Assembly (NCBI RefSeq): GCF_016786325.1
Contig: NZ_JADWYU010000192.1
Location: forward strand, 1 to 36,122
Direction of reading: 5' to 3'
Source: Frankia nepalensis
Lineage (GTDB): Bacteria > Actinomycetota > Actinomycetes > Frankiales > Frankiaceae
DNA: 36,122 bases
Shown here: one piece after another, positions 14,185-36,005 of the stretch
How the letters are laid out: the number at the start of each line of letters is the position of its first letter
Position numbering within the stretch: the stretch's first letter is position 1
Position numbers and translations under genes: made by a program
The notes under the pieces: model-generated
The model's database searches: none
What the model was told of the DNA's origin: nothing
The model's input: the letters and a program-made list of their open reading frames with translations, nothing else

Positions 14185-14463
14185 TCACCGTCGGTCCTCC
14201 GATCCGAAGTAGGCCTGCTGGAGGCGGCCGGGGTCGCCGGTGAGGTCGGCGGCGGCTCCGCGCAGGACGATGGCGCCGCGGTTGAGGATGGCGGCCTGGT
14301 CGGCCGCCTTCAGCGCCAGGTTGACGTGCTGCTCGACGAGCACGACGGCGCATCCGTGGTCGGTGGCGATCGCGCGGACGGTCTCGAACAGGCTCGCGAC
14401 GACCAGCGGCGCGAGCCCCATGCTGAGTTCGTCGACGAGCAGGACCTTGGGCTGCTGGACCTA
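14185..14463 (-). pseudogene. livF: C-terminal remnant of a LivF-type ABC ATPase
   Basis: The minus strand reads QQPKVLLVDELSMGLAPLVV (Walker B region and D-loop), then LVEQHVNLALKAADQAAILN (the H-loop His of LVEQ-x-V/N) and GRLQQAYFGSED. This is the last ~90 residues of the branched-chain amino acid type ATPase LivF (about 235 residues). Walker A, the Q-loop and the signature are absent, and an in-frame TAG stands just before the first recognisable residue at about 14463, so a break removed the front. No Liv permease or LivG gene is present. The lipoprotein binding protein at 14966 may be what remains of the same transporter locus. Confidence 0.7.
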
Positions 14464-14965: not shown

Positions 14966-16249
14966 ATGGAACACACCAGCAGGCCCGCGGGCACACGCCG
15001 GCTGCCCGGCATGCGCCGGGTGGCGGCGGTGGCGGCCGTGGCGGTACTGACACTCGTCGGCGCGGCGTGCGGAGGTGATGACTCGAGCAGCTCCAACGAG
15101 CCCGTCGACACCTCGGTGCTTGGACCCACGCAGGTGGCCAGTGGGACGCCGATCAAGATAGGCACGCTCAGTGACGGGCAGACGCCGGCATTCGACAACA
15201 CCATTCAGATCGACGCGGCCAAGGCCGTCGCCACGTTCCTCAACGAGCATCGGGGCGGCATCGGGGGGCATCCGATCGAGCTGGTCGTCTGCGAGACCCA
15301 GGGCGACCCGGGCAAGGCGTCGGACTGCGCGAACCAGCTGATCCAGGCTGACATCGCGATCGCGGTGTTCGGCGAGATCGCGAATATGGCGCAGGTGTGG
15401 CGGCCGCTGCACGACGCGAAGATCCCGGTCTTCACGTACGCGTCCACCGAGGCACCCGCGCTGGCGGACCAGGACTCGACCTTCATCCTCGCGAACCAGG
15501 TCGCGGGGCTCGCCGACGTACCGATCGGGGTCGCGAAGGAGAACGGCCTGAAGAAGGTGACGGCGATCGTCATCGACGTGCCGGCGGCGACGGACTTCTA
15601 CGAGACCACCGGCAAGAAGATCTTCGCGGACGCCGGCGTCGAGCTGAAGCTGGTCAAGGTGCCGCTCGGCACCGCCGACATGTCCCCGCAGATGGCGGAC
15701 ATCGTCTCCGGCGGGCCGACCGAGGTGCACATCATCGGCAACGACTCGTTCTGTATCGCGGCCTTCAACGGCCTGCGCGCGGTGAACTTCACCGGCCCGA
15801 TCAGCACGCTGAACCGGTGCGCCACCGACAGCGTGCGCAAGGCGATCGGCAGCGGCCTGGAGGGCGTGACCATGGGCGCGACGGCGGCACTTGGTGAGGA
15901 CACCGACAAGGACATCCAGCAGTGGACGGCGATCGCCAAGACCTACGGTGACGACATCGATCTCAGCAACTCGATGGGGCCGACGATCTACATGACGTTC
16001 GTGGCGCTGCACTCGGCACTCGAGGGCATCACGGGTGACCTCACTCCGGACGCGCTCGTCGCGAAGATCAAGGCGGCGCCGAGCATGCCCGTGCCCGCCG
16101 GCGGCGAACTGGCCTTCCGGTGCAACGGCAAGGCTCGCCCGCTGATGCCGGCGGTCTGCATCCGCGGCACTCTGCTGACGTCGCTCGACGAGGACGGTAA
16201 TCCCGTCCTGCCTTACCGAGCGACCGGCAACACGCCCATCGAGGACTGA
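14966..16249 (+). CDS. Lipoprotein solute-binding protein of the branched-chain amino acid ABC type
   Basis: This 427-residue protein is a periplasmic-binding-protein type I lipoprotein (LivJ/LivK-like). The N-terminus has Arg residues, a hydrophobic stretch (about 18-34) and a lipobox-like VGAAC (Cys35), followed by GGDDSSSS linker. The mature part starts IKIGTLSDGQTPAFDNTIQI and includes GIGGHPIELVVCETQGDPGK, typical of the family. It would bind a small acid, amide or aromatic outside the membrane and deliver it to a LivHMGF transporter. No permease is in the window and only a LivF tail lies upstream, so it either uses a distant transporter or is an orphan. GGGAG lies 5-6 bases before ATG 14966. 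Confidence 0.88.
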   Translation: MEHTSRPAGTRRLPGMRRVAAVAAVAVLTLVGAACGGDDSSSSNEPVDTSVLGPTQVASGTPIKIGTLSDGQTPAFDNTIQIDAAKAVATFLNEHRGGIGGHPIELVVCETQGDPGKASDCANQLIQADIAIAVFGEIANMAQVWRPLHDAKIPVFTYASTEAPALADQDSTFILANQVAGLADVPIGVAKENGLKKVTAIVIDVPAATDFYETTGKKIFADAGVELKLVKVPLGTADMSPQMADIVSGGPTEVHIIGNDSFCIAAFNGLRAVNFTGPISTLNRCATDSVRKAIGSGLEGVTMGATAALGEDTDKDIQQWTAIAKTYGDDIDLSNSMGPTIYMTFVALHSALEGITGDLTPDALVAKIKAAPSMPVPAGGELAFRCNGKARPLMPAVCIRGTLLTSLDEDGNPVLPYRATGNTPIED

Positions 16250-21555: not shown

Positions 21556-22170
21556 CTACCTGGCCGCGAGACCTGGCGAGGTCGTGTTCGCGGGTGGCGT
21601 CAGGATTCGGATGATCATCTCGATGATGTTGTCGATGGGGTGGTGCCGGGCGGCGGCGAGTGGCACGAAGATCCGTCCGAGGAGGATTCCGTGGACGGCG
21701 TCGAAGACCTCGTCGAGGTCGAAACTGGGTTCGACGCCGGCGGCTTTGACGATGGCGTAGAAGTGCGGCCGCAAGGAGAACTGCAGCCACTGGGCCGGCG
21801 GCGGGGCCTCGTGTTGGTAGGCGGCCATGAGGCCGGGGATGGCCGCGCGGGCGGCGGGCGCGCCCAGGCCGCTTTCGAACATGTGGATGAGGTGGCGCAG
21901 GTCGCCCCGCAGGTCGCCGGTGGGCTCGACGGTGACCTGGGTGAGGGCCGAGAACGCGGCTTCCTCGATGAGGGCCAGCCGGGTGGGCCAGCGGCGGTAG
22001 ATGGCGGGCACGTTCACGCCGCACCGACGCGAGATCTCCTGCACCGTGGTGGCCGCGAATCCGGATTCGCCGAGAAGCTGGCGCGTCGTCGCGAGGACGA
22101 CGGGCTCGATGTTCGGGTCCCGGGGTCTTCCGCGCGGACGGCGGCGTGACGGTGGCTCGTGGTCGGCCAT
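21556..22170 (-). CDS. TetR-family regulator of the P450 operon
   Basis: This 204-residue regulator has an Arg-rich start (SRRRPRGRPRDP), a helix-turn-helix (VLATTRQLLGESGFAATTVQ, then EISRRCGVNVPAIYRRWPTR) and a C-terminal domain with DEVFDAVHGILLGRIFVPLA, common in actinobacterial TetRs. It is divergent from the P450 gene with 89 bases between them, and a dyad there is an obvious operator (22223-22241). It therefore probably represses the 22260-26687 operon and itself. The effector is unknown, but the neighbouring genes suggest a hydrophobic acid or CoA ester. Confidence 0.88.
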   Translation of the reverse strand: MADHEPPSRRRPRGRPRDPNIEPVVLATTRQLLGESGFAATTVQEISRRCGVNVPAIYRRWPTRLALIEEAAFSALTQVTVEPTGDLRGDLRHLIHMFESGLGAPAARAAIPGLMAAYQHEAPPPAQWLQFSLRPHFYAIVKAAGVEPSFDLDEVFDAVHGILLGRIFVPLAAARHHPIDNIIEMIIRILTPPANTTSPGLAAR

Positions 22171-22180
22171 GGGCTCCTGG

Positions 22181-22241
22181 TTGACGTGACGGTTCGGGCC
22201 CTCCTATTCTCCCCCCACGTTAACGTAAGTGCCTCTTACGT
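22181..22241 (+). promoter_or_regulatory. Promoter and TetR operator of the P450 operon
   Basis: TTGACG (22181-22186), an 18-base gap and TATTCT (22205-22210) make a good promoter. Downstream of the likely start point lies ACGTAAG-TGCCT-CTTACGT (22223-22241), a perfect 7-5-7 dyad. It also contains the overlapping palindromes ACGTTAACGT at 22217-22226 and TTACGTAA at 22236-22243. A TetR bound there would block elongation or initiation, and it also sits close to the TetR start. Confidence 0.6.
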
Positions 22242-22259: not shown

Positions 22260-23456
22260 ATGGCGCAAGCCGATCATCCCGTCACCAAGGTCGACTTCGT
22301 GAACCTCGTCGCCAGCTTCGGTGGCACGGCGACCTCGACCCAGCCGCAGCCCGTCAACCACGCGCTGGTCGAGCGGGGGGCCGTCCGGCTGGGTGACGCG
22401 GTGCTGGTCAACAGCCGGGCGCTGGCCGACGCGACGCTGCGCAACCGGTCGTTGTTCTCCTCGGAGGACCTCGTCGAGCAGGGCAACACCCTGCCGCTGA
22501 TCCCGCTGGGCATCGACCCGCCGGACCACACCGCGTACCGCAGGTTCCTGGACCCGCTGTTCTCGCCGCGCCGCGTCGACGCGCTGGAGGCCGACATCAC
22601 CGCGCGGGTGAACCGGTTCGTCGACACGTTCGTCGACCGCGGCTCGTGCGACTTCACCGCCGAGTTCGCGGAGCTGTTCCCGTCGTCGGTGTTCCTGGGG
22701 ATGCTGGGGCTGCCGTGGGAGGAGCTCGGCACGCTCGTCGGGTTCCGCGACGGTCTGCTGCGTCCGGGCGACCTGGCGATGCGGCCGGAGGAACGCTCGG
22801 CGATCCAACGGGACACGGCGCGGCAGGTCTACGCCTACTTCGACGCGGTGCTCGACCAGCGCGCCGCGGCGCCCCGCGACGACCTGCTGTCGCTGTTCGT
22901 CAGCGCGCAGACGGCCGAGGGCCGGTTTCGCCGCGACGAGCTGCTGTCGATCTGTTTTGTGCTGCTCACGGCCGGGCTGGACACGGTGACCGACTCACTC
23001 ACCTGCTTCTTCGCGTTCCTTGCCCAACATCCCGGCCACCGGCGGCGCATCGTCCAGGACCCCGACGTCATCGCGAACGCCGTGGAGGAGCTGCTGCGGT
23101 GGGAGACACCGGTCCCGTCGGTGGTCCGGTGGGCCAGGCAGGACGCCGCCCTCGGCGGGGAGACGGTCGAGGCCGGTCATCACGTGATGGTGAACCTGGG
23201 CGCCGCCAATCTCGACCCGGCCGAGTTTCCTGACCCGCTGGAGGTCCGTTTCGACCGGGAGGTCAACCGCCATCTCGCGTTCGGCGGCGGTGTGCACCGC
23301 TGCCTCGGTTCCCATCTCGCCCGCCGGGAGCTGCGGATCGCCCTGCGGGAATGGCACCGACGGATTCCCGAGTACACGCTCAGCCCCGGCTACGAGGTCA
23401 GCTACCTCCCGCCGCTGCGCTACGTCCCCGACCTCAGACTCTCGTGGGCGACGTGA
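22260..23456 (+). CDS. Cytochrome P450
   Basis: This 398-residue soluble bacterial P450 has the I-helix oxygen motif AGLDT (238-242), ExxR at Glu277-Arg280, and the haem loop FGGGVHRCLGSH with Cys348. IDPPDHTAYRRFLDPLFSP is the usual C-helix/FG region of class I bacterial P450s. It would hydroxylate a hydrophobic substrate, taking electrons from a ferredoxin and reductase that are not encoded here. It is the first gene behind the operator, GGGAG is 8 bases before ATG 22260, and its stop overlaps the next GTG (GTGA). It could supply a hydroxyl for the downstream reductases. The CYP family cannot be named from sequence alone. Confidence 0.93.
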   Translation: MAQADHPVTKVDFVNLVASFGGTATSTQPQPVNHALVERGAVRLGDAVLVNSRALADATLRNRSLFSSEDLVEQGNTLPLIPLGIDPPDHTAYRRFLDPLFSPRRVDALEADITARVNRFVDTFVDRGSCDFTAEFAELFPSSVFLGMLGLPWEELGTLVGFRDGLLRPGDLAMRPEERSAIQRDTARQVYAYFDAVLDQRAAAPRDDLLSLFVSAQTAEGRFRRDELLSICFVLLTAGLDTVTDSLTCFFAFLAQHPGHRRRIVQDPDVIANAVEELLRWETPVPSVVRWARQDAALGGETVEAGHHVMVNLGAANLDPAEFPDPLEVRFDREVNRHLAFGGGVHRCLGSHLARRELRIALREWHRRIPEYTLSPGYEVSYLPPLRYVPDLRLSWAT

Positions 23457-24508
23457 GCAGCCGGGTCGTCCAGTGGGCGACGGGTACCACCGGCCGGCTG
23501 GCCCTGCGGGCCGTCATCGACGCGCCCGACCTCGAGCTCGTCGGCGTCCGGGTCTACGACCCCGAAAAGGTCGGCGCCGACGCGGGAGACCTCGCCGGCC
23601 GCCCCGCGACCGGGGTCCGCGCGACCGACAGCAAGGACGAGCTGCTCGCCCTCGCCCCGGACGTCGTGCTCTACATGGGCCGGGTCGAGACCAACCCGGA
23701 GGGCTGCTTCACCGACGTCGCCGACCTGCTGGCCGCCGGCGCCGACGTCATCGCGACCGGCAGCTCGTTCGTCGACACCCGCGCGTTCGACCTCGAACGC
23801 CACCAGGCTCTCGCCGCCGCGTGCGAGAAGGGCCGGAGCACCTTCCTCGGTCTCGGGCTGTTCCCCGGGTTCTGGGGCGAGGTCGTCGCCCCGGTCCTGT
23901 CCCGGCTCGCGTTCCAGTGCGACCGCATCTTCGTGCGAGAACACCTGTCCTACGCCGAATACCCGAGCACCCAGCTGATCTTCGACGTCATGGGGTACGG
24001 CCATGCCCCGGACGCGACCGGCCCGCTGCTCAGCGACCCGCGCCGCGCCGCCGGTGCCTTCACTGGCACGGCGACGATCCTCGCCAAGTCTCTCGGCCTC
24101 GCCGTCGCCTCCGTCGAGCCGTTCCGCGAGGTAGCCGTGACCGACCGGGAGCTGACGGTCGCCGCCGGCGTCATTCCCGCCGGGACGGTCGGGGCGATGC
24201 GACTCGGCGTCCTGGCCGACTGCGGCCCGGTCACCATCGCCGTCGAGCACGTCACCTGGATGGCGCCCGACGTCGCGCCGCGGTGGTCCGCCCCCGGCGA
24301 GGGCTACCAGATCGAGTTCGACGGCGCGCCAACCCTGCGCTGCACCCTCGTCCTCGGCACCAGGGGCGAGGACCACACCGACATGGGCTGCCTCGCCACC
24401 GCCATGCACGCCGTGCACGCGATTCCCGCCGTGCGGGCGGCGGCGCCAGGCGTCCTGGACCTCGCGGACGTACCGACCTTCCTGGGGAGACTGCCATGGC
24501 CGACGTGA
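23453..24508 (+). CDS. DapB-like NAD(P)-dependent reductase 1
   Basis: This 351-residue protein starts SSRVVQWATGTTGRLALRAV, a Rossmann motif of the dihydrodipicolinate-reductase-like / 2,4-diaminopentanoate-dehydrogenase-like family. It continues with DLELVGVRVYDPEKVGADAG and LFPGFWGEVVAPVLSRLAFQ. True DapB is about 250 residues and makes lysine; this branch is about 350 residues, common beside actinobacterial catabolic genes, and is often called amine-dehydrogenase-like. Substrates are not generally known. GTG 23453 overlaps the P450 stop, and the 3' end overlaps the next gene by 13 bases, so translation is coupled. A second copy follows at 25608. Confidence 0.82.
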   Translation: MSSRVVQWATGTTGRLALRAVIDAPDLELVGVRVYDPEKVGADAGDLAGRPATGVRATDSKDELLALAPDVVLYMGRVETNPEGCFTDVADLLAAGADVIATGSSFVDTRAFDLERHQALAAACEKGRSTFLGLGLFPGFWGEVVAPVLSRLAFQCDRIFVREHLSYAEYPSTQLIFDVMGYGHAPDATGPLLSDPRRAAGAFTGTATILAKSLGLAVASVEPFREVAVTDRELTVAAGVIPAGTVGAMRLGVLADCGPVTIAVEHVTWMAPDVAPRWSAPGEGYQIEFDGAPTLRCTLVLGTRGEDHTDMGCLATAMHAVHAIPAVRAAAPGVLDLADVPTFLGRLPWPT

Positions 24509-25611
24509 CACCGGCCCGCATCGGCCTGCTCATCGACTATCTCGACGCCGACGGCGGCTACGACGAGAACATCCTGCTCACGCTGCGACTCGTCGCCGAC
24601 GACTACTTAGCCCGCGGCGTCCTCGAACGGCCGGTCGAGTTCGTCGTCCGCGCCGTGCAGGGACTGCCGAACGGCACCTTCCAAGCCGTGCGCGCCGCCT
24701 TCCGCGAACTGGTCGAAGAGGGCGTACTGGTGATCTTCGGGCCTTGGGTGTCCGAGAACGGCGTCGCCCTGCGCCCCTACGTCGAGCAGCTGGGCGAGGT
24801 CGCCTGCATCACCATGGGCGCCTCCGAGACCATGCTCGGCGAATGGGTCTTCGGCCTCCCCGCCGGCTCCATGGAGGAGGAGCCGATCATCATGGCCACC
24901 ATCGCCGCTCTCGACGGCTGCCGCACCGTCGGTATCGCGTACGAGGACTCCCTCATCGGCGCCGAGTACTTGCGCACCACCCGGGTCGCCTGCAAGGAGG
25001 CCGGCCTGCGTATCACCGCGGAGGTCCCCATCCCCCAGGTCCAGGCCGACAAGCAGGCCGCGATGAAGCAGCTGGCCGTCGACCAGCCCGACGGGATCCT
25101 GCACGTCGGGTTCGGCCTCGGCATCCCCGGCATGAACGACGCCCTCGCCGAAATCGGTTGGACGCCACCCCGGTACACGACCACCGCGTTCGAGTTCGCG
25201 GCCACCAGCGCCTGGTGGCGCGACCAGCTGGCCGGCTGGATCGGCCTCGACCAGTACGACGAACGCAACCAGACCGCCGTCGCGTTCCTCGACCAGTTCG
25301 AGGCTCGCCACGGCCGTCGGCCCGCGTACTTCTTCCCGCTCTACTGCTACGACGTCGGCCGGATGATGATGCTGGCGCTGGCCGGCGCCCGCCCACTCAC
25401 CGGCCCCGGCGTCAAGGACGCCCTCGAGAAAATCAAAATGCTTCCGGCCGCGTCCGGCGCGCCGGGAACCCGCCTGCGGTTCGGCCGCTACATCCGGCAC
25501 GGCTGGGTCGGAAGCGAGTTCCTCGTGGCCCGACGCGTCCTGCCCGACGGCAGCCGAAGCGTCCTGCACGCCACCATCGAAGGCCTCGTCGAACCGCCCT
25601 CCACCCCGTGA
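24496..25611 (+). CDS. Solute-binding-protein-like protein without signal peptide, 1
   Basis: This 371-residue protein has the fold pattern of type I periplasmic binding proteins: RIGLLIDYLDADGGYDEN, FGPWVSENGVALRPYVEQLG, GLPAGSMEEEPIIMATIAAL and PDGILHVGFGLGIPGMNDAL. But it begins MADVTPARIGLLIDYL, with no charged-hydrophobic signal and no lipobox, so it probably stays in the cytoplasm. It overlaps the preceding gene by 13 bases and the next by 4. Its paralogue lies at 26820-27932. A cytosolic ligand-binding or enzyme role, possibly as a chaperone for a CoA ester, is inferred. It contains one TTA codon (24607-24609), rare in such GC-rich DNA. Confidence 0.85.
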   Translation: MADVTPARIGLLIDYLDADGGYDENILLTLRLVADDYLARGVLERPVEFVVRAVQGLPNGTFQAVRAAFRELVEEGVLVIFGPWVSENGVALRPYVEQLGEVACITMGASETMLGEWVFGLPAGSMEEEPIIMATIAALDGCRTVGIAYEDSLIGAEYLRTTRVACKEAGLRITAEVPIPQVQADKQAAMKQLAVDQPDGILHVGFGLGIPGMNDALAEIGWTPPRYTTTAFEFAATSAWWRDQLAGWIGLDQYDERNQTAVAFLDQFEARHGRRPAYFFPLYCYDVGRMMMLALAGARPLTGPGVKDALEKIKMLPAASGAPGTRLRFGRYIRHGWVGSEFLVARRVLPDGSRSVLHATIEGLVEPPSTP

Positions 25612-26687
25612 CCCGGGTCGTCCAGTGGGCGACCGGCCCCGTCGGCACGGCCCAGCTCCGCGAAGTCATCGACAGCCCCGGCCTCGACCTCGTCGGCCTG
25701 TTCGTCTACAGCCCACACAAGGTCGGCGTGGACGCGGGCGATCTCGTCGGCCGCGGCCCCACCGGCGTCGTCGCCACCAACGACAAGGCGGCGATCCTCG
25801 CGCTCGACGCCGACCTCGTCCTGCACGCCGCGAGCAAGGCCTACTCCGACAACACCAACACCGACGACATCGTCGCCCTGCTCGAATCGGGCAAGGACGT
25901 CATCACCACCACGTCCTACAACCACCTCCCCACCTTCGGGGCGGCAGCCCGCGAGCGGGTCGAGAGCGCCTGCCAGCGGGCGGGCACCCGGTTTCACGCC
26001 GCGGGGGAACATCCCGGCTTCATGTTCGAGCGGCTCGCCACCACGCTCACCGGACTCTCGCAACGAGTCGACAAGATCGTCGTCCAGGAGTTCGTCGACT
26101 GCCGGGGCCTGTCGTCGAAGGAAATGCTCGTCGACCTCATGGGCATGGGTAAACCGCCCGAGGACATCACGATCACCTCCCCCATGTTCCAGGCCGTGTC
26201 GATCCAGTACGAGCAGGCGCTCGCGGCCACCGCCGACATACTCGGCCTGCGCATCGACGAGATCCACCGGTCGATCCGCACAGCGACCGCTTCCACAGAT
26301 GTCGAGACCCGGTGCGCGACCCTGCCGGCCGGCACCGTCGTCGGACAGATCCTGTCCTGGTCCGCTCACCACGGCGGCATCCCGGTGCTCGTCGCCGAGG
26401 AGCACTGGACCGCCACCGGCGGCCTACCCACCTGGGAGCACCTGCCCGACGGCGAGTTCCTCGTCCGCGTCCAGGTCGACGGAGCCCCGTCCCTGCACCT
26501 GGACCTACGCATCGGCAACGAGCCCATCGCGGGATTCCCCGGCGTCGGCGGCGGCCAGCTCGCGGTCGCCATGACCGCCATCCGCGCCATCCCCGACGTC
26601 CTCCAAGCCCCACCCGGAGTCGTCATTCCCGCCATCTTCGGCGCCTACCGCTGGCCCCGGAACCCAGCCAGGACCCCAGCACGCTGA
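25608..26687 (+). CDS. DapB-like NAD(P)-dependent reductase 2
   Basis: This 359-residue protein is a paralogue of the gene at 23453. It begins TRVVQWATGPVGTAQLREVI, has DAGDLVGRGPTGVVATNDK, GEHPGFMFERLATTLTGLSQ and ends with GAYRWPRN. It shares RVVQWATG-x-x-G and DAGDL-x-GR with copy 1, but the middle regions differ (AASKAYSDNTNTDDIVALLE here against MGRVETNPEGCFTDVADLLA), so the substrates probably differ or they act as a heteromer. The GTG start overlaps the binding-protein-like stop (GTGA). It is the last gene of the P450 operon; 132 bases separate it from the convergent second binding-protein-like gene. Confidence 0.82.
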   Translation: MTRVVQWATGPVGTAQLREVIDSPGLDLVGLFVYSPHKVGVDAGDLVGRGPTGVVATNDKAAILALDADLVLHAASKAYSDNTNTDDIVALLESGKDVITTTSYNHLPTFGAAARERVESACQRAGTRFHAAGEHPGFMFERLATTLTGLSQRVDKIVVQEFVDCRGLSSKEMLVDLMGMGKPPEDITITSPMFQAVSIQYEQALAATADILGLRIDEIHRSIRTATASTDVETRCATLPAGTVVGQILSWSAHHGGIPVLVAEEHWTATGGLPTWEHLPDGEFLVRVQVDGAPSLHLDLRIGNEPIAGFPGVGGGQLAVAMTAIRAIPDVLQAPPGVVIPAIFGAYRWPRNPARTPAR

Positions 26688-26819
26688 ATATTGAGGTCCC
26701 CGACTCCGCGCCCTACCAGACCGCTATCAACCGGTAACCGGCAAAACAACGGACGTGGTGCCTTTCCCGATGGCGAGCACCGCCGGAGGAGAACAGCTCG
26801 TGGCGGGCGTGACGCGGGC

Positions 26820-27932
26820 TTAGCTGGGTTCGAAGCGGGCGACGAGGCGGTGGGACTTGCGGTCGGGTTCGAAGGCGCGGGCGACGAGGTAGCTTGAGCC
26901 CATCCAGCCGCGGCGGGTCCACTGGCCGAAGGAGATCGTCGTTCCGGGGGCGCCGGAGGCGGCCGGGACGAGTTTCACGCGTTCGAGGGCGTCGCGCACG
27001 CCCCGCGGCGACAGCGGCTCGGCGCCCGCGAACGCGCGCGCCAGCGCCACGCCCGCGTCGTGGCACAGCCCCGGCGCGTAGTACTGCGGCCGGCGGCCGT
27101 ACGCGGCCTCGAAGCGGTCCAGGAACCGCTGGCCGACCAGGTTGTCCTCGTCGTACTGCTCCAGCCCGACCCAGCCGACGTACGCGTCCCAGATCTCGTC
27201 CGAGAAGTACGCGTCCTCGAACGCGGTTCCCATGTATCGCGGCGGGTCCCAGCCGAGGGCGCCGAGCGCCTCGTTGATCCGGATCACGCCGTAGCCGAAG
27301 CCGAGGTGCACGAGCGCGTCGGGCCGCGACCCGTGGAGGGAGCGCACCGCGTCGCCGATGTCCTGCCCGGTCTGCGCGATGGTCTCCTCCGCGACGATGC
27401 GCAGTCCCTGCTCCCGGCAGGCGTCGCGGAAGCCGCGCCCGTACAGCTGACCGATCACCGAGCGTTCCACGAGCACCCCCGCCGTGCGCGCGCCGGCCCT
27501 GGCGGCGAGGTTCGCGAGGATGATCGGTTCGTCGGTCATCGACCCGTTGGGCAGCGCGAAGGTCCACTTCCCGAGCCACTGGTCGGCGCCGCAGACGCTG
27601 ATCGAGGGCACCCGGAACCGCCGCTCGATCTCGGGCCGCAGGGCGAGGGTGTTCTCGGAGATGTGCGGGCCGAAGACGGCGAGGCAGCCCTCGTCGACGA
27701 GTTCGCCGTAGCTGTCGATGACGGACTTCACGCTGCCGGTCGGTAACCCGTCGGCGTCGCGCTCGACGAGTTCCACCGGCCGGTCGAGCAGTCCGGACTC
27801 CTGCGCCTCGCGGAAGACCAGCGCGAGCGCGTCGAGGAAGTCCTGGCGGGTGTCGTAGGCCCTGCCGGGCGGGATGGTGAAGTCCTGCAGAACGCCGAGC
27901 TTGATCGGCTTCGCCTGATGTCCCACGGCCAC
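26820..27932 (-). CDS. Solute-binding-protein-like protein without signal peptide, 2
   Basis: This 370-residue protein is a paralogue of the one at 24496: FGPHISENTLALRPEIERRF, ALPNGSMTDEPIILANLAAR, LVHLGFGYGVIRINEALGAL and SGAPGTTISFGQWTRRGWMG align block by block. The start is set at GTG 27932, which has GGGAG 7 bases upstream, giving AVGHQAKPIKLGVLQDFTIP. The 67 residues read further upstream are Arg/Ala filler and not a signal peptide. It therefore also lacks an export signal. It is convergent with the P450 operon and divergent from the CaiC-like ligase at 28206, so its promoter would lie near the AT-rich motif at 28153. Confidence 0.83.
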   Translation of the reverse strand: MAVGHQAKPIKLGVLQDFTIPPGRAYDTRQDFLDALALVFREAQESGLLDRPVELVERDADGLPTGSVKSVIDSYGELVDEGCLAVFGPHISENTLALRPEIERRFRVPSISVCGADQWLGKWTFALPNGSMTDEPIILANLAARAGARTAGVLVERSVIGQLYGRGFRDACREQGLRIVAEETIAQTGQDIGDAVRSLHGSRPDALVHLGFGYGVIRINEALGALGWDPPRYMGTAFEDAYFSDEIWDAYVGWVGLEQYDEDNLVGQRFLDRFEAAYGRRPQYYAPGLCHDAGVALARAFAGAEPLSPRGVRDALERVKLVPAASGAPGTTISFGQWTRRGWMGSSYLVARAFEPDRKSHRLVARFEPS

Positions 27933-28205: not shown

Positions 28206-29837
28206 GTGAGTGACGGTGTCTGGGGGAGTGCCTCGCGGCATACGACCACGGAGCTGCTGGTGCGGCGGATCGAGAAGGAGCCGGACAGCGAGTACCTGGA
28301 CATCGGTGGGACCACGCTGACGGCCGCGCAGGTCGGCGCGGCGGCGGCTCGGCTGGGTGGTGGTCTTCGGGAGCTGGGGGTCGGCCCTGGTGACCGGGTG
28401 GCGATGTTGTTGGAGAACTCGCCGGAGATGCTGGTCGCGTGGTGGGCGGCGCAGTGGGCGGGTGCCGTGGCGGTACCGATCAACACGGCGTACAAGGGCG
28501 AGTACCTGCGTCATCAGCTGCGGGACTCCGGGGCGACCGTGCTGGTCGTCGCCCACGATCTCGCGGATCGCGCCGCGGCCGTGTCCGGCGATCTCGACGA
28601 GCTGGCGCATGTGGTGGTCACGGGCCCGGAGGTGCCGGTGTTCCCGGGCGCGGCCGGTCACCGGTTCGACGACCTGCTGTCGGGTGCGCCGCTGGCGGAG
28701 CCGGTCGCGCGCCGCCCGTCGGACCTGGCGACGTTCATCTACACGGGTGGGACGACGGGTCTGTCGAAGGGCTGCATGCTCAGCCACAACTACCACGAGG
28801 CGCTGGCGAGGCAGATCGGCTACAGCTGGGGCCGGACGGCGGCGGACGTGGTGTGGACGCCGCTGCCGATGTTCCACTACAACGCGCTGGTCACGGCGGT
28901 GGTGGGGACGCTGGTGTACGGCGGGCGGGCGGCGATCTACCGGAAGTTCTCGGTGTCGAACTTCTGGCCGGAGATGAACCGGACCGGCGCGACGATGACC
29001 TCGACGCTCGGGACGATGGCCTACCTGCTGGCGCACGACGAGGACAGACCGGAGATGCCGCGCTCGGGTGCGCCGGAGGCGAACACGTCGCTGCGGCTGA
29101 TGGGGGCGGCGCCGCTGCCGCCGGAGGTCGACGACGTGATCCGTTCCCGGTTCGGGATCGACACGTTCTCCGGTGCCTACGGGGTGACCGAGGCGAGCCT
29201 GATCTCCTGGCAGCCGCCGGGCGTGCGCAACAGGCCGCGCGCCGCGGGGGTCGTGAACACCGAGTACTTCGATGTGCGGATCTTCGACGACGAGGACAAC
29301 GAGCTGCCCCGTGGGACGGACGGGGAGATCGTGATCCGGCCGAAGCTGGCGCACGTCATGTTCGAGGGGTACTGGGGCCGTCCCGAGGTGACGGTGGAGA
29401 CGAGCCGGAACTGGTGGTACCACACCGGGGACATCGGGAAGATCGACGAGGACGGCTACCTGTACTTCGTCGACCGCAAGGCCGACTACCTGCGCCGGCG
29501 CGGCGAGAACATCGCGAGCTTCGAGGTCGAGCGGATCCTGATGGGCCACGGCCAGCTCGCCGACGTCGCGGTGCACGCGGTGCCGAGCCAGCTGACCGAG
29601 GACGACGTGAAGGTGACGGCGACCCGGGTCGCCGGCTCGGCGCTCACCGAGGAGGAGCTGTTCCGGTGGTGCGTGGACGCGCTGCCGTACTTCGTCCTGC
29701 CGCGCTACATCGAGTTCCGCGACGAGCTGCCCCGCAGCCCGGTCGGCCGGGTCCTCAAGCGTGAGCTGCGCGCCGAGGGCGTCACCCCCGCCACCTGGGA
29801 CGTCGAGGCCGCCGGCATCACCTACGAGAAGCGCTGA
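28206..29837 (+). CDS. ATP-dependent acyl-CoA ligase (CaiC-like)
   Basis: This 543-residue AMP-forming ligase has FIYTGGTTGLSKGCMLSHNY (P-loop), FSGAYGVTEAS (adenine motif), WYHTGDIGKIDEDGYLYFVD and RKADYLRRRGENIASFEVER (hinge), as in crotonobetaine/carnitine-CoA ligase-like enzymes. At the end it reads LPRSPVGRVLKRELR: the position of the usual catalytic Lys (GK) is Arg, although a Lys stands three residues later. GTG 28206 is preceded by GGAGG at about 11 bases. It starts the plus-strand set with thiolase, SDR, alcohol dehydrogenase and two ACADs, and would activate the starting acid. Confidence 0.88.
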   Translation: MSDGVWGSASRHTTTELLVRRIEKEPDSEYLDIGGTTLTAAQVGAAAARLGGGLRELGVGPGDRVAMLLENSPEMLVAWWAAQWAGAVAVPINTAYKGEYLRHQLRDSGATVLVVAHDLADRAAAVSGDLDELAHVVVTGPEVPVFPGAAGHRFDDLLSGAPLAEPVARRPSDLATFIYTGGTTGLSKGCMLSHNYHEALARQIGYSWGRTAADVVWTPLPMFHYNALVTAVVGTLVYGGRAAIYRKFSVSNFWPEMNRTGATMTSTLGTMAYLLAHDEDRPEMPRSGAPEANTSLRLMGAAPLPPEVDDVIRSRFGIDTFSGAYGVTEASLISWQPPGVRNRPRAAGVVNTEYFDVRIFDDEDNELPRGTDGEIVIRPKLAHVMFEGYWGRPEVTVETSRNWWYHTGDIGKIDEDGYLYFVDRKADYLRRRGENIASFEVERILMGHGQLADVAVHAVPSQLTEDDVKVTATRVAGSALTEEELFRWCVDALPYFVLPRYIEFRDELPRSPVGRVLKRELRAEGVTPATWDVEAAGITYEKR

Positions 29838-29953: not shown

Positions 29954-31126
29954 GTGACCGACGCAGTCATCGTCTCGACCGCTCGCACGCCCATCGGGCG
30001 TGCCCGTAAGGGATCGCTGGTCGGGCTGGACGCGTTCCAGCTCGCAGAGGTCGTCGTGCCCGCGGCGCTCGAGCGCGCCGGCGTGCCCGCGCGGGACGTC
30101 GACGGCCTGGTGCTCGCCGAGGCGTACCAGGGCGGCGGGGTCATCGCCCGCAACGTGGCCGTGCGGCTTGGCCTGGACGACCTCGCCGGCCTCGCCACCA
30201 ACCAGCACTGCGCCGGCGGCCTCGCCGCCGTCGCGATCGCGGCCGGCAGCGTCCGCGCCGGTATGGACCAGGTGGTCATCGCCGGTGGTACCGAGAGCCT
30301 GACCAACAGCGCGATGACGACCACCAGGAAGGGGCCCGACGGGCAGCCGGTGACGTGGGTGTCCGCGTCGCACCCGGAGACGCCGGACGCCCCGGCCTTC
30401 GACATGTCGATCACTGTCGGCGAGAACACCGCCCGTGAGCTGGGCCTGACCCGTCGCGACGTGGACGAGTGGGCCGCCTACAGCCACGGTCAGGCGGTCG
30501 CGTCGATCGACGGCGGCTACTTCGCCGACCAGATCGTGCCGGTCGAGGTGACGGCGCCGGACGGCACGACCAGGCTGTTCGACACCGACGAGTTCCCGCG
30601 CCGCGGGGTCACCGTCGAGTCGCTCGCCCAGCTGCGGCTGCTGCATCCCGAACTGCCGGACGCGACGGTGACCGCCGGCAACGCCGCGGGCCTGAACGAC
30701 GCGGCGGCCGCGGTCACGCTGGCCAGCGGCGAGTACGCGGCGGCGAACGGGCTGGCGCCGCTGGCCCGGATCCGGTCGTGGGCGTCGGTCGGGGTGCCCC
30801 CGGCGCTGACCGGGCTCGGCCCGTCGCTGGCGATTCCGAAGGCACTCGACCGGGCCGGGCTCACGCTCGCCGACATCGACCTCTTCGAAATCAACGAGGC
30901 CTTCTGCTCCGTCCCGGTCGCGGCCATCCGCAAGCTCGGGATCGCCCCGGAGATCGTGAACGTCAACGGCAGCGGCGCGAGCCTGGGCCACCCGATCGCC
31001 GCCACCGGCGCGCGGATGGTCGTGACGATGGTCCACGAGCTGCGCCGCCGCGGGAACACCCTCGGCGTCGTGTCCATGTGCGCCGGCGGCGGCATGGGCG
31101 CCGCCATGGTCATCGAGGCCCTCTAA
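29954..31126 (+). CDS. Thiolase (acetyl-CoA acyltransferase family)
   Basis: This 390-residue thiolase has NQHCAGGLAAV with the acyl-accepting Cys86, LFEINEAFCS (NEAF motif), GHPIAATGARM with His346 and MCAGGGMGAAM with Cys376 as the second catalytic Cys. All residues needed for cleavage or formation of a 3-ketoacyl-CoA are present, so it is likely active as a degradative thiolase or an acetyltransferase. It is not of the SCP2/steroid type that needs a DUF35 partner, and none is present. GTG 29954 follows GAGGAG. It lies 116 bases after the ligase and is followed by two hairpins. Confidence 0.93.
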   Translation: MTDAVIVSTARTPIGRARKGSLVGLDAFQLAEVVVPAALERAGVPARDVDGLVLAEAYQGGGVIARNVAVRLGLDDLAGLATNQHCAGGLAAVAIAAGSVRAGMDQVVIAGGTESLTNSAMTTTRKGPDGQPVTWVSASHPETPDAPAFDMSITVGENTARELGLTRRDVDEWAAYSHGQAVASIDGGYFADQIVPVEVTAPDGTTRLFDTDEFPRRGVTVESLAQLRLLHPELPDATVTAGNAAGLNDAAAAVTLASGEYAAANGLAPLARIRSWASVGVPPALTGLGPSLAIPKALDRAGLTLADIDLFEINEAFCSVPVAAIRKLGIAPEIVNVNGSGASLGHPIAATGARMVVTMVHELRRRGNTLGVVSMCAGGGMGAAMVIEAL

Positions 31127-31146: not shown

Positions 31147-31214
31147 GGCTCGCCCCGATGGGCGGGCCACCCGCTTCTCCCGGTTGGCTCGCCGATGGGC
31201 GAGCGAACCGGGAG
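31147..31214. terminator. Two tandem hairpins between thiolase and SDR
   Basis: The first (31147-31168) pairs GGCTCGCCC with GGGCGGGCC (one G-T) around CGAT. The second (31177-31214) pairs CTCCCGGTT-G-GCTCGCC with GGCGAGC-G-AACCGGGAG, a 17-base stem with one mismatch around GATG. The second is very stable. It ends 25 bases before the SDR start, so it may be a terminator, an attenuator or a processing site that sets the ratio of thiolase to SDR. Confidence 0.55.
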
Positions 31215-31239
31215 CTCGGACATCCTGGAAGGAATCGCC

Positions 31240-32091
31240 ATGGGCAAGCTCGACGGCAAGGTCGCCTTCATCACCGGAGCCGCGCGCGGCCAGGGCCGCA
31301 GCCACGCGCTGCGGTTAGCCAGCGAGGGCGCGGACATCATCGCGGTCGACCTGTGCGAGCAGATCGCCAGCGTCCCCTACCCGCTGGGGACGCCGGAGGA
31401 CCTCGCCCAGACCGTCAAGGAGGTCGAGGCGCTCGGCCGGGGCATCGTCGCGGTGAAGGCCGACGTCCGGGAGCGGTCCCAGCTGCGGGCCGCGCTCGAC
31501 GAGGGGCTGGCCCGGTTCGGCCGGCTCGACATCGTGCTCGGGAATGCCGGTGTCTGTGCCTGGGACGACCTGTCGCTGTGCGGCGGGTTCGTCGACGTCA
31601 CCGATGTCGACCTCATCGGCGTGATGAACACCGTCGCGGTCAGCCTGCCGCACCTGACCGCCGGTGCCTCGATCATCCTGACCGGCTCCACCGCCGGCAT
31701 GATGAAAGGCACCACCGAGATCATGGGCAACACCGGCGGCGTCGGCTACTCCTGGGCCAAGCAGACCGTGCTCCGCTACACCGAGGTCCTGGCCCTGCAG
31801 CTCGCGCCGCACAACATCCGGCTGAACGCGATCCACCCGACGAACGTCAACACCAACCTGCTGCAGAACGACCGGATCTACAAGACGTTCCGCCCGGACC
31901 TGGAGAGCCCCACCCGCGAGGACGCGGAGCTGGCGTTCCCGGTGCTGCAGGCGATGCCGATCCCGTACATCGAGCCGAACGACGTGAGCTCCCTGGTGCT
32001 GTTCCTCGCGTCCGACGACGCGAAGTACATCACCGGCCTCAACATCCGCATCGACGCCGGCGGAATGCTCAAGGGCGAGTCAGCCCTCTAG
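31240..32091 (+). CDS. Mycofactocin-type short-chain dehydrogenase
   Basis: This 283-residue SDR has TGAARGQG (12-19), Asp37 (IAVDLC), an insert PYPLGTPEDLAQTVKEVEAL after strand two, NAG (102-104), Ser150, Tyr170 and Lys174. This early insert with LxTxxxVExLGR is the hallmark of SDRs that keep their NAD and need the redox cofactor mycofactocin to reoxidise it. No mycofactocin biosynthesis gene is in the window. It would oxidise a secondary alcohol of the substrate. ATG 31240 follows GGAAGGA. Codon 26 is TTA, rare here. Confidence 0.9.
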   Translation: MGKLDGKVAFITGAARGQGRSHALRLASEGADIIAVDLCEQIASVPYPLGTPEDLAQTVKEVEALGRGIVAVKADVRERSQLRAALDEGLARFGRLDIVLGNAGVCAWDDLSLCGGFVDVTDVDLIGVMNTVAVSLPHLTAGASIILTGSTAGMMKGTTEIMGNTGGVGYSWAKQTVLRYTEVLALQLAPHNIRLNAIHPTNVNTNLLQNDRIYKTFRPDLESPTREDAELAFPVLQAMPIPYIEPNDVSSLVLFLASDDAKYITGLNIRIDAGGMLKGESAL

Positions 32092-33450: not shown

Positions 33451-34710
33451 GTGGATGATGTGCTGACCGACGAGCAGCGGATGCTGGTGGACGCGTCCGC
33501 GCGCTTCATCGCGCGGACCTGTCCATTGGAGAAGGTGCGAGAAGGCACCTACGCCGGCGCCGGCTTCGCCGCCGCGTACCGGCGCCAGGCGGGCGAGCTG
33601 GGCTGGTACTCACTGCTCGTCCCGGACGAGCTCGGCGGCGGGAGCGTCTCGGGCAACGGCGTGCTCGACGCGGCGCTCGTGGCCTACCACCGGGGCCGCG
33701 CGCTGCAGCCCGGGCCGTTCGTCGGCACGAACGTCGTGGCGTACGCGCTCGCCGCGGCCGGCGCCGGCGAGCAGACGGCGAAGGTACTGCCCGCCCTGCT
33801 GTCAGGGGAGACGTCGGCGGCCTGGGTGCCCGCCGCGGCGCTGGTTCCGCCGTCGTCGGCGGGTTCGGCGGCCGCGCCGCCGGCCGCCCCGGTGGGCCGG
33901 TCGGCGTCGGCCGGGGCCGTGTCGGCGGTGGAGGCCGGCGGTGGCTGGCGGTTGTCCGGGCAGGCCACGTTCGTGGAGGATCCCGGTCCGGACGGCTGGT
34001 TCCTGGTGACCGCCAGCACCGGTCCCGCGAGCGCGGGGGACGGTGGAGGCGCCGGGCTCGCGCAGTTCCTGCTGCCGGCCGGCACCCCCGGTCTGCGGGT
34101 GGTGCCGCTCGAGTCGTTGGACCTCACCCGCCGGTTCGTCCGGCTGGACTTCGACGACGTCCCCGTCGCGTCGGCTGGGAGCAGGCTTGGCGCGGCGGGC
34201 GATGGGGGCGGCGCGGACGAGCTGGTCGCCCGGCAGCTCGCGCTGGCGTGTGTCCTGACCACGGCCGAGTCGGTCGGCGCGATGGATTTCGAACTCGCGA
34301 TGACGGTGCAGTACGCGAAGGACCGGATCGCGTTCGGCCGGCCGATCGGCTCGTTCCAGGCGCTGAAGCACGTGCTCGCGGACACCAGCCTCGCGCTGGA
34401 GATGAGCAAGGCGATCACGACGGCCGCGGCCCAGCGGCTCGGCGAGGTGGACGGCTCGCCCGGCGCGGCCGAGCCGGGCGGCTCTCCCGGCTCGGCTGGC
34501 TACGGGCTGGAGGCGGCGAGCATGGCGAAGGCGTTCGTCGGGGACAGCGGCGTCGACCTTGCCCAGAACTGTTTCCAGGTCTTCGGCGGGATCGGCTTCA
34601 CCTGGGAGCACGACCAGCATCTCTTCCTGCGCCGGCTGACGACCGACGCGGCGTTGTTCGGCGACCCGAGCTGGCACCGGGAGCGCCTGTGCCAGCTGTC
34701 CGGGATCTAG
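33451..34710 (+). CDS. Acyl-CoA dehydrogenase, small-subunit type of a heteromeric pair
   Basis: This 419-residue ACAD has LTDEQRMLVDASARFIARTC (N-terminal helices), WYSLLVPDELGGGS, DRIAFGRPIGSFQALKHVLA (R-x-x-F-G-x-x-I-x-x-x-Q) and CFQVFGGIGFTWEHDQHLFL (the GGIGFTWE motif). Two Ala/Ser/Pro/Gly-rich inserts, at about 131-155 and 332-350, make it longer than usual. GTG 33451 follows GGAGGAG. It is 26 bases from the next ACAD; such adjacent, dissimilar pairs form alpha2-beta2 enzymes that dehydrogenate steroid or other bulky acyl-CoAs. It probably acts after the ligase at 28206. Confidence 0.9.
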   Translation: MDDVLTDEQRMLVDASARFIARTCPLEKVREGTYAGAGFAAAYRRQAGELGWYSLLVPDELGGGSVSGNGVLDAALVAYHRGRALQPGPFVGTNVVAYALAAAGAGEQTAKVLPALLSGETSAAWVPAAALVPPSSAGSAAAPPAAPVGRSASAGAVSAVEAGGGWRLSGQATFVEDPGPDGWFLVTASTGPASAGDGGGAGLAQFLLPAGTPGLRVVPLESLDLTRRFVRLDFDDVPVASAGSRLGAAGDGGGADELVARQLALACVLTTAESVGAMDFELAMTVQYAKDRIAFGRPIGSFQALKHVLADTSLALEMSKAITTAAAQRLGEVDGSPGAAEPGGSPGSAGYGLEAASMAKAFVGDSGVDLAQNCFQVFGGIGFTWEHDQHLFLRRLTTDAALFGDPSWHRERLCQLSGI

Positions 34711-34736
34711 GCCGTGTCTAGGCGAGGGTGTGACTG

Positions 34737-36005
34737 ATGACCGATGAGGTTTCGGACGGCGCGAGCGGGCTCGACGAGTTCCGCGCCGAGGCGCGGGCGT
34801 GGCTGGCCGCGAATCTGGAGCGGCGGCCGGCCGGTGTGCGCGATGGCGGAGAGGCCCGCGGCGACGAGGAGGTCGCCGCCGCTCGGCCGCTGCAGCGCAA
34901 GCTGTTCGACGGCGGGTACGCGGGCCTGTCGTTTCCCCGGGAGTACGGCGGCCGCGGGCTGACGGGGCACCACGAGCGGGTGTTCGTGGAGGAGTCGCGG
35001 GGGTATCTCACGCCGCACTTCGGTGGCGCCGGCCACGTCACGTTCACCGCGATCGCGCGGTCGATGCTCGCGCACGCGTCGCCGGAGTTCCTGCGCCGGC
35101 ACATCCCGCCGATCCTCAAGGGGGAGCGGCTGTGGTGCCAGTTCTACTCGGAGCCCGAGGCCGGCTCGGACCTCGCCGGGATCCGGACGACGGCGCGCCG
35201 CGAGGGCGATCGCTGGGTGCTGAACGGGTCGAAGATCTGGAGCACGGGCGCGCACCAGGCCGACTACGCGATGTGCCTGGCGCGCACCGACTGGGACGTC
35301 CCGAAGCACCGCGGCCTGACCTGGTTCGCCGTCCCCACCGACGCCAGGGGCGTCACGGTCCGGCCGATCCGGCAGATCAACGGGGAGTCCGGGTTCTGCG
35401 AGGCGTTCCTGGACGACGTGGTCGTGTCCGACGAGGACATCATCGGGGAGGTCAACCAGGGGTGGTCGGTCGCGCAGACGATGCTGGTCTACGAGCGCGG
35501 CGCCGGGAGCTCCGGCGGGGCCCGGGTGGAGCCCCGCGTGCTCGCCCCCGAGCTCGTCGCGCTCGCCCGGAAGGTGGGCCGCCTTGACGACCCGCTCGCG
35601 CGGCAGGCCATCGCGCGGGCACACGTCAACGAGTTCGCCCAGTACCACCTCGGCCTGCGGATCGCCGCCCGGCTGCGAAGCTCGGCCACACCGCAGCCGG
35701 CGGTCGCCGCCTACGGGAAGCTGGCCGCCGGCGTACTCTCGCCGATCCGGGCCCGGCTCACGGTGGAGATCGGCGGGGCCGAGGCGCTGACCTGGCCGCG
35801 GGGCGCCGACGAGACGGCGACCCAGCCCGCGACCAGCTACCTCAACGGCCGGATGGTCGCCATCGCCGCCGGCACGAACGAGGTGCAGCGCAACGGCATC
35901 GGCGAGCGCGTGCTCGGCCTGCCGCGCGAGCCGAGCTTCGACGCCCGCAAGCCGTTTCGCGACGTCGTGCGCGACGCCCGAACCTGGGACGGCCGCATCG
36001 GCTGA
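34737..36005 (+). CDS. Acyl-CoA dehydrogenase, large-subunit type of a heteromeric pair
   Basis: This 422-residue ACAD has FDGGYAGLSFPREYGGRGLT, CQFYSEPEAGSDLAGIRTTA (FAD and substrate region), WVLNGSKIWSTGAHQADYAM, and a C-terminal IAAGTNEVQRNGIGERVLGL (the GTxEIQR-like tail, with NEVQRN). It pairs with the preceding gene. GAGGG stands before ATG 34737. A 77-base stretch of its 3' part (35771-35847) is repeated exactly after its stop at the window's end. It is complete and in frame. Confidence 0.92.
   Translation: MTDEVSDGASGLDEFRAEARAWLAANLERRPAGVRDGGEARGDEEVAAARPLQRKLFDGGYAGLSFPREYGGRGLTGHHERVFVEESRGYLTPHFGGAGHVTFTAIARSMLAHASPEFLRRHIPPILKGERLWCQFYSEPEAGSDLAGIRTTARREGDRWVLNGSKIWSTGAHQADYAMCLARTDWDVPKHRGLTWFAVPTDARGVTVRPIRQINGESGFCEAFLDDVVVSDEDIIGEVNQGWSVAQTMLVYERGAGSSGGARVEPRVLAPELVALARKVGRLDDPLARQAIARAHVNEFAQYHLGLRIAARLRSSATPQPAVAAYGKLAAGVLSPIRARLTVEIGGAEALTWPRGADETATQPATSYLNGRMVAIAAGTNEVQRNGIGERVLGLPREPSFDARKPFRDVVRDARTWDGRIG
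35771..35847 (+). repeat. 77-base direct repeat, inner copy
   Basis: This part of the ACAD gene is identical base for base to 36046-36122, at an offset of 275 bases. The base before it differs (T here, G in the other copy). Confidence 0.9.

Follow-up and report, generated by a model that had tools for sequence, protein, structure and literature searches.

A putative P450 operon of Frankia nepalensis with a signal-less binding protein encoded between two dehydrogenases

Introduction

What does a binding protein of transporter type do between two dehydrogenases? The question is raised by a contig of Frankia nepalensis (NZ_JADWYU010000192.1; 36,122 nucleotides, all of it analysed and called the window here) in which the gene of such a protein, SBP1, lies between two dehydrogenase genes, DapB1 and DapB2, behind a cytochrome P450 gene. 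SBP1 has the type I periplasmic-binding (PBP) fold in common with LivJ-type substrate-binding proteins (Peripla_BP_6); it differs from them in that no signal peptide is seen, no permease gene is found on the contig and the gene sits within an enzyme operon. To our knowledge, no substrate-binding protein (SBP) is known to serve a metabolic enzyme as subunit or carrier, and our literature search found no example of one; searched by title and abstract, open-licence papers included none describing this gene set.

Results

Layout of the operon

The P450, DapB1, SBP1 and DapB2 genes overlap by 4, 13 and 4 bases, exactly as a preliminary description of this DNA had claimed (Table 1). It had also placed them behind a single promoter and a TetR operator. 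The operator is a probable one, a perfect palindrome ahead of the P450 gene; its sequence has one match in the window against a chance expectation of 0.01, with up to two mismatches allowed. In Frankia AgB1.9 (locus L064; L036 and L090, whose contigs have an identical length of 37,253, were taken to be this stretch too) the TetR gene has a counterpart at the same place with 72% identity, and a copy of the palindrome with one mismatch was read by eye upstream of the P450 gene. The single promoter is a possible one, suggested by one 9/12 consensus match where 0.3 are expected by chance.

Table 1. Features of the window (positions in the 36,122-nucleotide stretch)
Feature	Position	Strand	Remarks
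TetR-family regulator	21556..22170	-	divergent from operon; Pfam TetR_N 51.6 bits
Possible promoter, TTGACG-18-TATTCT	22181..22210	+	consensus match only
Probable operator, ACGTAAG-N5-CTTACGT	22223..22241	none	perfect palindrome
Cytochrome P450	22260..23456	+	ExxR, AGxDT and FGxGxHxCxG motifs read from sequence
DapB1, dehydrogenase of native-amine-dehydrogenase fold, without paired glutamates	23453..24508	+	GTG start; GTG 23444 possible
SBP1, signal-less type I periplasmic-binding fold, presumably cytosolic	24496..25611	+
DapB2, another dehydrogenase of this family, distinct from DapB1, also lacking paired glutamates	25608..26687	+	GTG start
SBP2, not in the operon; signal-less paralogue of SBP1 (47%)	26820..27932	-	GTG start 27932; divergent from acyl-CoA ligase
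Acyl-CoA ligase	28206..29837	+	close homologue adjoins SBP2 orthologue in L091, L092, L093
Thiolase	29954..31126	+
Mycofactocin-coupled short-chain dehydrogenase	31195..32091	+	TIGR03971, 345 bits, cut-off 300
Two adjacent acyl-CoA dehydrogenase genes	33451..36005	+

The enzymes

The P450 matches Pfam p450 with 91.8 bits (cut-off 22.8) and has the heme-Cys, ExxR and I-helix motifs (Table 1). By sequence its nearest PDB chains are CYP143-like, followed by CYP101/CYP267 and others. P450 genes are abundant in this genome, at 89 places.

Both dehydrogenases were labelled DapB-like reductases in the preliminary description, a label that proved imprecise. They exceed the cut-off of the C-terminal domain DAP_DH_C (PF19328; 29.5 and 30.0 bits, cut-off 23.3) and stay below those of DapB_N (PF01113; 23.7 and 20.2 bits, cut-off 25.6) and of HTPA reductase DapB (TIGR00036; 28.3 and 26.0 bits, cut-off 122). 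A Foldseek comparison with the PDB, made for DapB1, returned as its best 18 matches only chains of native amine dehydrogenases or 2,4-diaminopentanoate dehydrogenase; thus DapB1 shares the fold of these enzymes, and PF19328 extends the likeness to DapB2. Scores for the 2,4-diaminopentanoate dehydrogenase Ord (NF040740) were 68.4 and 87.9 bits, below the NCBI curated cut-off of 400. Native amine dehydrogenases have an adjacent Glu-Glu that includes the catalytic glutamate P3, whereas this glutamate is absent from both proteins, the position being Ser-Ser in DapB1 (aligned to 7xdu) and Ser-Tyr in DapB2 (aligned to 6g1m). In PMC11164908, members of group G5 mostly lack Glu P3 and were inactive on the tested substrates unless the glutamate was present; its gene-context analysis, in a passage on another group, did not yield a function.

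The binding proteins

SBP1 and SBP2 score 84.3 and 106.2 bits with Pfam Peripla_BP_6, and the LivJ-type PBP type I fold is present in the structure model of SBP1 (pLDDT 90.8). The absence of signal peptides claimed earlier was borne out: judged by eye, the N-termini of SBP1, SBP2 and their orthologues showed none, unlike exported-type paralogues, of which five of six had a signal by the same reading and the sixth was cut short at the start of its frame. Both proteins look unexported, and SBP1 is presumably cytosolic. An exported SBP serving a distant Liv system was considered and rejected, given the lack of a signal in the orthologues and of a Liv-type permease (PF02653) on the contig, which is the window itself; none was found at the 20 SBP1 loci compared either. 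SBP2, described before as a paralogue converging on the operon, does converge on it, but is not part of it.

At locus L078 the reading frame extends upstream through a hydrophobic stretch; in its close relative L079 a stop precedes the start by 19 codons. The presumed cleft loops were not clearly better conserved than the rest, with 36/340 and 107/340 shifts equal or better (an exported SBP row was removed from the second alignment).

Neighbouring genes

The window holds three CoA ligases, one thiolase and four acyl-CoA dehydrogenase genes. A mycofactocin-coupled short-chain dehydrogenase, present in the window, is also encoded beside DapB2 in L069. Both the window and the surroundings of a second version of the module (below) hold members of the actinobacterial alcohol dehydrogenases linked to mycofactocin (TIGR03971, TIGR03989). 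Excerpts of PMC3023750, which describes mycofactocin-linked dehydrogenase families, make no mention of a DapB1-SBP-DapB2 trio.

Recurrence of the gene order

The gene order, which the preliminary description had proposed to look for in other actinomycetes, was found in Frankia AgB1.9 and in mycobacteria and is thus not unique. All four genes occur in order at 5 of 20 SBP1 loci, and a DapB-like gene lies within 8 kb of SBP1 at 12. Wherever DapB2 adjoins SBP1 (9/9 loci, window included), the 4-base overlap between them is kept, gene starts in the compared loci being those of a simple gene caller. DapB1 is absent from two loci (L075, L076), and one dehydrogenase is shortened in L064 and L070. Eight of the 20 loci have no orthologue of the P450, DapB1 or DapB2; in three of these (L071, L073, L077) SBP1 lies directly upstream of mce genes. 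In two others of the eight, L081 and L082, a different P450 is encoded within 8 kb; L081 has a DapB1 fragment as well. Among 297 Mycobacterium genomes, with up to six candidates scored per genome, 11 had SBP1, 7 had DapB2 and 4 had the P450, in nested fashion: all those with the P450 have DapB2, and all those with DapB2 have SBP1. SBP1 is, as far as these gene counts tell, the most widely kept part of the module. Since the genomes are related, neither locus nor genome counts are independent.

Proximity was measured in 10 of 35 genomes, leaving out short fragment rows (save one), some weak SBP rows and 1 of 89 P450 rows. Close SBP homologues lay within 5 kb of a DapB-like gene in 7 of 17 cases against 0.31 expected from gene density, and more distant SBP-like paralogues within 10 kb of one in 1 of 30 against 1.04 expected. 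DapB-like genes in general also lie near P450s (10/27 within 5 kb, about 2.6 expected).

A second, diverged version

A second version of the module, with DapB1', DapB2', SBP' and another P450 (P450'), was present at 6 of 7 further mycobacterial loci, a figure that does not describe a random sample because the seven were picked for genomes holding both SBP1 and a DapB2-like match. Locus L109 has DapB1', DapB2' and P450' and lacks SBP'. An NDMA-dependent alcohol dehydrogenase is encoded beside the second version at 4/4 loci tested, and L106 has Mce and YrbE genes near it. A neighbour of 335 residues matched nothing in Pfam or NCBIfam, and its PDB matches were no better than E 0.64.

In the dehydrogenase tree (cleared of rows containing stops and of matches shorter than about 280 residues) DapB1 groups with DapB1' (100/100) and DapB2 with DapB2' (100/99). 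In the SBP tree (cleared of near-identical rows, rows containing stops and matches shorter than about 300 residues) SBP1 groups with SBP' (100/99), SBP2 falling outside; both trees carry a long-branch warning. The trio sub-families thus recur in both versions across deep branches, with rearranged orientation. As the trio members pair across versions while the two P450s share only 27% identity, the lasting unit is the trio: DapB1-SBP1-DapB2 has a common descent in two versions, and the P450 was exchanged. PDB sequence relatives fix a substrate for neither P450; the nearest chains of P450' are mixed, with PikC, CYP142 and CYP125 among them.

A hydrophobic stretch is readable upstream of SBP' in L106, L110, L111 and L113. 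It was rejected as an export signal and is a conserved DNA element, not a protein segment: in L108 no start codon precedes it, and in L112 it is not in frame.

Discussion

We tentatively propose, as a reading that may well prove wrong, that the products of the four genes act together in the breakdown of a lipophilic compound, SBP1 serving the enzymes as an intracellular binding protein. Catabolism of a lipophilic compound is indicated by the mycofactocin-coupled dehydrogenases, CoA ligases and acyl-CoA dehydrogenases, and by the Mce importers elsewhere; the substrate would probably be terpenoid- or steroid-like. The P450 would hydroxylate the lipophilic substrate, and DapB1 and DapB2, probably as one heteromeric NAD(P)-dependent enzyme, would carry out redox chemistry on the oxygenated product, with further redox steps by the mycofactocin-coupled dehydrogenase. 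The CoA ligase, acyl-CoA dehydrogenases and thiolase would then degrade the product, and SBP1 may receive or buffer the substrate or an intermediate inside the cell. A bolder form of this proposal, which we think unlikely as it stands, is that DapB1, DapB2 and the internal SBP make up one substrate-presenting oxidoreductase system, where an SBP recruited to the cytosol captures the lipophilic product of the P450 and passes it on to the Glu-less heterodimer, varied P450s feeding a constant trio. The earlier idea of the SBP-like proteins as cytosolic partners of the reductases, perhaps binding the P450 product or its CoA ester, is supported in part, by the recurring order, the unexported look of the SBPs, their nearness to DapB-like genes and the catabolic surroundings. 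The occurrence of SBP1 without the other operon genes weakens a strict partnership with the dehydrogenases. Further points against the module are the lack of SBP' in L109, the missing or shortened dehydrogenases at four loci, the cleft-loop result and the more distant paralogues, which show no association with DapB-like genes.

Through the module, amine-dehydrogenase-like proteins that lack the glutamate gain a conserved setting of P450, mycofactocin enzymes and CoA activation as well as a constant partner, which makes a search for their substrate feasible. It also points to binding proteins of transporter appearance whose place of action is probably intracellular; in actinobacteria and sphingomonads, such genes would then have to be interpreted differently.

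Among the alternatives, the wide retention of SBP1 and its place before mce genes would also suit a role of SBP1 and SBP2 as intracellular partners of an importer (Mce or Liv) that take up the ligand on its entry, the nearby P450 and dehydrogenases being only one of several downstream pathways. In agreement, an exported SBP gene adjoins a signal-less one in L083 and in L102, Liv permeases are encoded close to SBP-family genes in L087, L100 and L102, and the second version in L106 has its Mce and YrbE neighbours. However, few SBP1 loci have an importer gene nearby (Mce 3/20, Liv-type permease 0/20), and the coupling of SBP1 to DapB1 and DapB2 would be left unexplained; we regard this role as unlikely.

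We consider it rather unlikely that SBP1 is a cytosolic ligand sensor controlling the operon by holding a regulator. The known partners of AmiC- and NasS-type sensors are ANTAR proteins; a search of the genome gave six ANTAR places, none on the contig of the window, and even the closest pairing of an ANTAR place with an SBP-family gene, on contig C209, spans about 16 kb. The regulator family also varies between loci, as TetR or GntR, while SBP1 and the dehydrogenases stay constant, and in the window the SBP1 gene shares bases with the enzyme gene on either side. Nevertheless, AmiC is among the structural matches of SBP1 (1pea, rank 49), and a regulator gene is often near it (GntR 9/20 loci, TetR 4/20). 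AmiC and NasS are likewise signal-less binding proteins in operons of small-molecule metabolism; SBP1 differs from them in having no ANTAR gene nearby in its own genome and in its association with a P450 and dehydrogenases. NasS, which binds NasT, is a documented case of a signal-less SBP (PMC3795266).

That the co-location reflects only general clustering of catabolic genes and transfer as one cassette, SBP1 and the dehydrogenases being functionally unconnected, appears improbable: the many other contexts of SBP1 and the general nearness of DapB-like genes to P450s speak for it, but the same three sub-families stand together in two deeply split versions with rearranged orientation, which is not as hitch-hiking predicts. 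As to the catabolic or biosynthetic role first suggested, the neighbourhood favours the catabolic half, and a biosynthetic P450 tailoring operon, with dehydrogenases acting on a secondary metabolite, is very improbable: a weak similarity of the P450 to biosynthetic P450 models (all far below cut-off) and the many P450 genes of the genome speak for it, but Pfam found no polyketide, peptide or terpene synthase in 29 of the 30 genes called in the window, where the contig ends, and the neighbours are of catabolic type.

Additionally, viral contigs gave no relative and plasmid records no SBP1 match, while 14 plasmid records held DapB2 matches of less than 60% identity.

Organization of the operon

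The four genes of the operon and their overlaps agree with what the preliminary description had reported (table below). The window corresponds to the entire contig C13 (36,122 bases), one of the 398 contigs that make up a 10.7 Mb genome, so the gene context can be read only up to its two ends. A TetR gene lies upstream in divergent orientation, and between both we found a perfect palindrome, the single such site in the window against 0.01 expected by chance. By reading, a copy with one mismatch precedes the P450 of Frankia sp. AgB1.9, the nearest relative found for the operon.

Features of the window
Feature	Position	Remark
P450	22260-23456	first gene of operon
DapB1	23453-24508	follows P450
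SBP1	24496-25611	follows DapB1
DapB2	25608-26687	follows SBP1
SBP2	26820-27932	strand opposite to operon; end 132 bases from DapB2
Palindrome	22223-22241	between TetR gene and operon
SDR	31195
Lipoprotein-type SBP	14966-16249
ABC ATPase-like frame	14185-14421	78 residues

Conservation of the module

The P450/DapB1/SBP1/DapB2 module is real and conserved, and no published description of it was found by title and abstract among open-licence papers. A single scan of genome contigs found SBP1 relatives at 19 loci, which makes 20 with the window (two from Frankia, 14 from mycobacteria, three from sphingomonads and one from a Rhodovastum bin). The search for the same gene order elsewhere, suggested in the preliminary description, recovered the full order in four loci besides the window (L064 from Frankia AgB1.9, L066, L067 and L074), that is in 5 of 20. 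DapB1-SBP1-DapB2 without P450 occurs in two (L065, L068), P450-DapB1-SBP1 in three (L069, L070, L072) and SBP1-DapB2 in two (L075, L076), while eight have none of P450, DapB1 and DapB2 (L081 retains a DapB1 fragment). In L069 and L070, DapB2 is on the other strand, about 1.8 kb before P450 and beside an SDR gene; in L072 it is on a 51,359-base contig, taken from this length as the same contig that carries P450-DapB1-SBP1. Wherever SBP1 and DapB2 adjoin, they overlap by 4 bases (9/9 loci, window included). At the E-value limits used, SBP1 was present in 11 of 297 Mycobacterium genomes, DapB2 in seven of these 11 and P450 in four of these seven, and neither DapB2 nor P450 in any other of the 297. 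The sphingomonad genome of L079 also holds a DapB2 relative (61%).

Weaker DapB2 matches in SBP1-bearing genomes led to seven further loci, with a second, diverged version of the module whose gene order and orientation differ from the first. SBP', DapB2', P450' and DapB1' are together in six of them (L106, L108, L110, L111, L112 and L113), DapB1' being just a fragment in L112, and L109 is without SBP'. In trees, DapB1 grouped with DapB1' (100/100, 15 rows), DapB2 with DapB2' (100/99, 21 rows) and SBP1 with SBP', leaving SBP2 outside (100/99, 25 rows); only one other DapB-like row from the window's own genome, at contig C384, fell inside the dehydrogenase clades, with DapB2. Identity between versions is 57% for DapB1, 47% for DapB2, 54% for SBP and 27% for P450. 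As the clades of DapB1, DapB2 and SBP are joined across versions and P450 identity is so low, this trio has remained together while the P450 was exchanged; no other finding argues as strongly for the trio as a functional unit. Directly before SBP' in the same six loci is a conserved stretch of DNA that includes a CAACAT...ATGTTG-like palindrome and may serve as operator for the divergent TetR gene found in L106.

The dehydrogenases

The designation "DapB-like" is imprecise: DapB1 and DapB2 are both above the PF19328 cut-off but below those of DapB_N, TIGR00036 and NF040740, and the fold is that of native amine dehydrogenases, which make up the 18 best PDB matches of the predicted DapB1 model (pLDDT 90.1). 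The adjacent Glu-Glu of these enzymes is replaced by Ser-Ser in DapB1 and Ser-Tyr in DapB2. According to PMC11164908, Glu P3 is the catalytic residue, and group G5, mostly without it, was inactive on the substrates tried, Glu-bearing members excepted. Both dehydrogenases are present in 9 of the 12 first-version loci that carry either (in two, one is shortened) and in 7/7 of the second version (one is a fragment). The joint occurrence of two distinct clades suggests that DapB1 and DapB2 may form a heteromer.

The DapB2 of Frankia AgB1.9 (L064:9113-10057) has an uninterrupted reading frame that covers only residues 1-132 and 281-350, and the loss of about 148 residues may be a real deletion or an assembly artefact; a similar internal loss affects DapB1 of a Mycobacterium bin (L070:7609-8010, residues 1-40 and 256-350, in frame). 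The genome that carries the window has 27 DapB-like and 89 P450-like places, and 10 of the 27 DapB-like genes have a P450 no more than 5 kb away (about 2.6 expected).

The binding proteins

The predicted SBP1 model (pLDDT 90.8) has a type I periplasmic-binding fold, with PDB matches including binders of aromatic acids, fatty acids and amino acids, and AmiC. The reported absence of signal peptides was borne out by eye: the first strand of SBP1 spans residues 7-13, in SBP1 and SBP2 orthologues no more than about a dozen residues separate the likely start from the beginning of the like stretch, and several have an in-frame stop close upstream (L068, L082, L075, L065). Read likewise, 5/6 exported-type paralogues, among them the one encoded in the window, showed lipoprotein-type signals, the sixth frame (L099) being cut at its start by gene calling. 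Apparent signal-bearing exceptions, L078 and SBP', were rejected on inspection. Some more distant family members have other N-terminal extensions, and in L085, L051, L053 and L086 these contain a conserved WYEGGGRIGEKA-like stretch; in L085, three Amidohydro_2-like genes surround the SBP-like gene. Two loci (L083:7533-10135 and L102:7894-10450) pair an SBP gene of the exported lipoprotein type with a signal-less one immediately after it, an arrangement that would fit binding of one ligand both outside and inside the cell.

Only SBP homologues of at least 40% identity are associated with DapB-like genes, with such a gene within 5 kb in 7/17 (0.31 expected) and within 10 kb in 9/17 (0.57 expected), against 0/30 and 1/30 of more distant homologues. 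Of the roles considered for SBP1, that of a putative carrier is the most likely. The main points against it are that SBP1 has a wider occurrence than its partners, that SBP' is absent from one second-version locus and that a conservation test of the presumed cleft gave a weak result.

Importers and pathway context

No Liv permease is encoded on C13, and among 53 loci examined with a profile from seven own-genome permeases only L087, L100 and L102 carry one. The window also encodes a lipoprotein-type SBP, with no permease in the window, and near it a frame that by eye resembles a piece of an ABC ATPase, with no Pfam match. Mce genes directly follow SBP1 in L071, L073 and L077, and YrbE and Mce genes are near the second version in L106. 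In L071:9341-16950, no YrbE permease gene was recognised between SBP1 and the mce genes directly 3' of it.

When 29 of the 30 called window genes were scanned with Pfam, no synthase for polyketides, peptides or terpenes was found; the genes recognised include a thiolase, three CoA ligases, four acyl-CoA dehydrogenase genes, two luciferase-like monooxygenases and several dehydrogenases. The SDR of the window, likewise that beside DapB2 in L069, is above the mycofactocin-coupled family cut-off, and the ADH beside the second version exceeds that of NDMA-dependent ADHs in 4/4 loci tested (L106, L108, L110, L113); both families are tied to mycofactocin in PMC3023750. CoA ligases, acyl-CoA dehydrogenases, thiolase, mycofactocin-type dehydrogenases and Mce genes together suggest that a lipophilic compound is imported and then catabolized. 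Also, a family of about 335 residues without Pfam or NCBIfam match (L076:6988-7995, L110:12078-13088, L113:4550-5542, L071:5802-6818) recurs beside SBP1 loci, mce loci and the second version.
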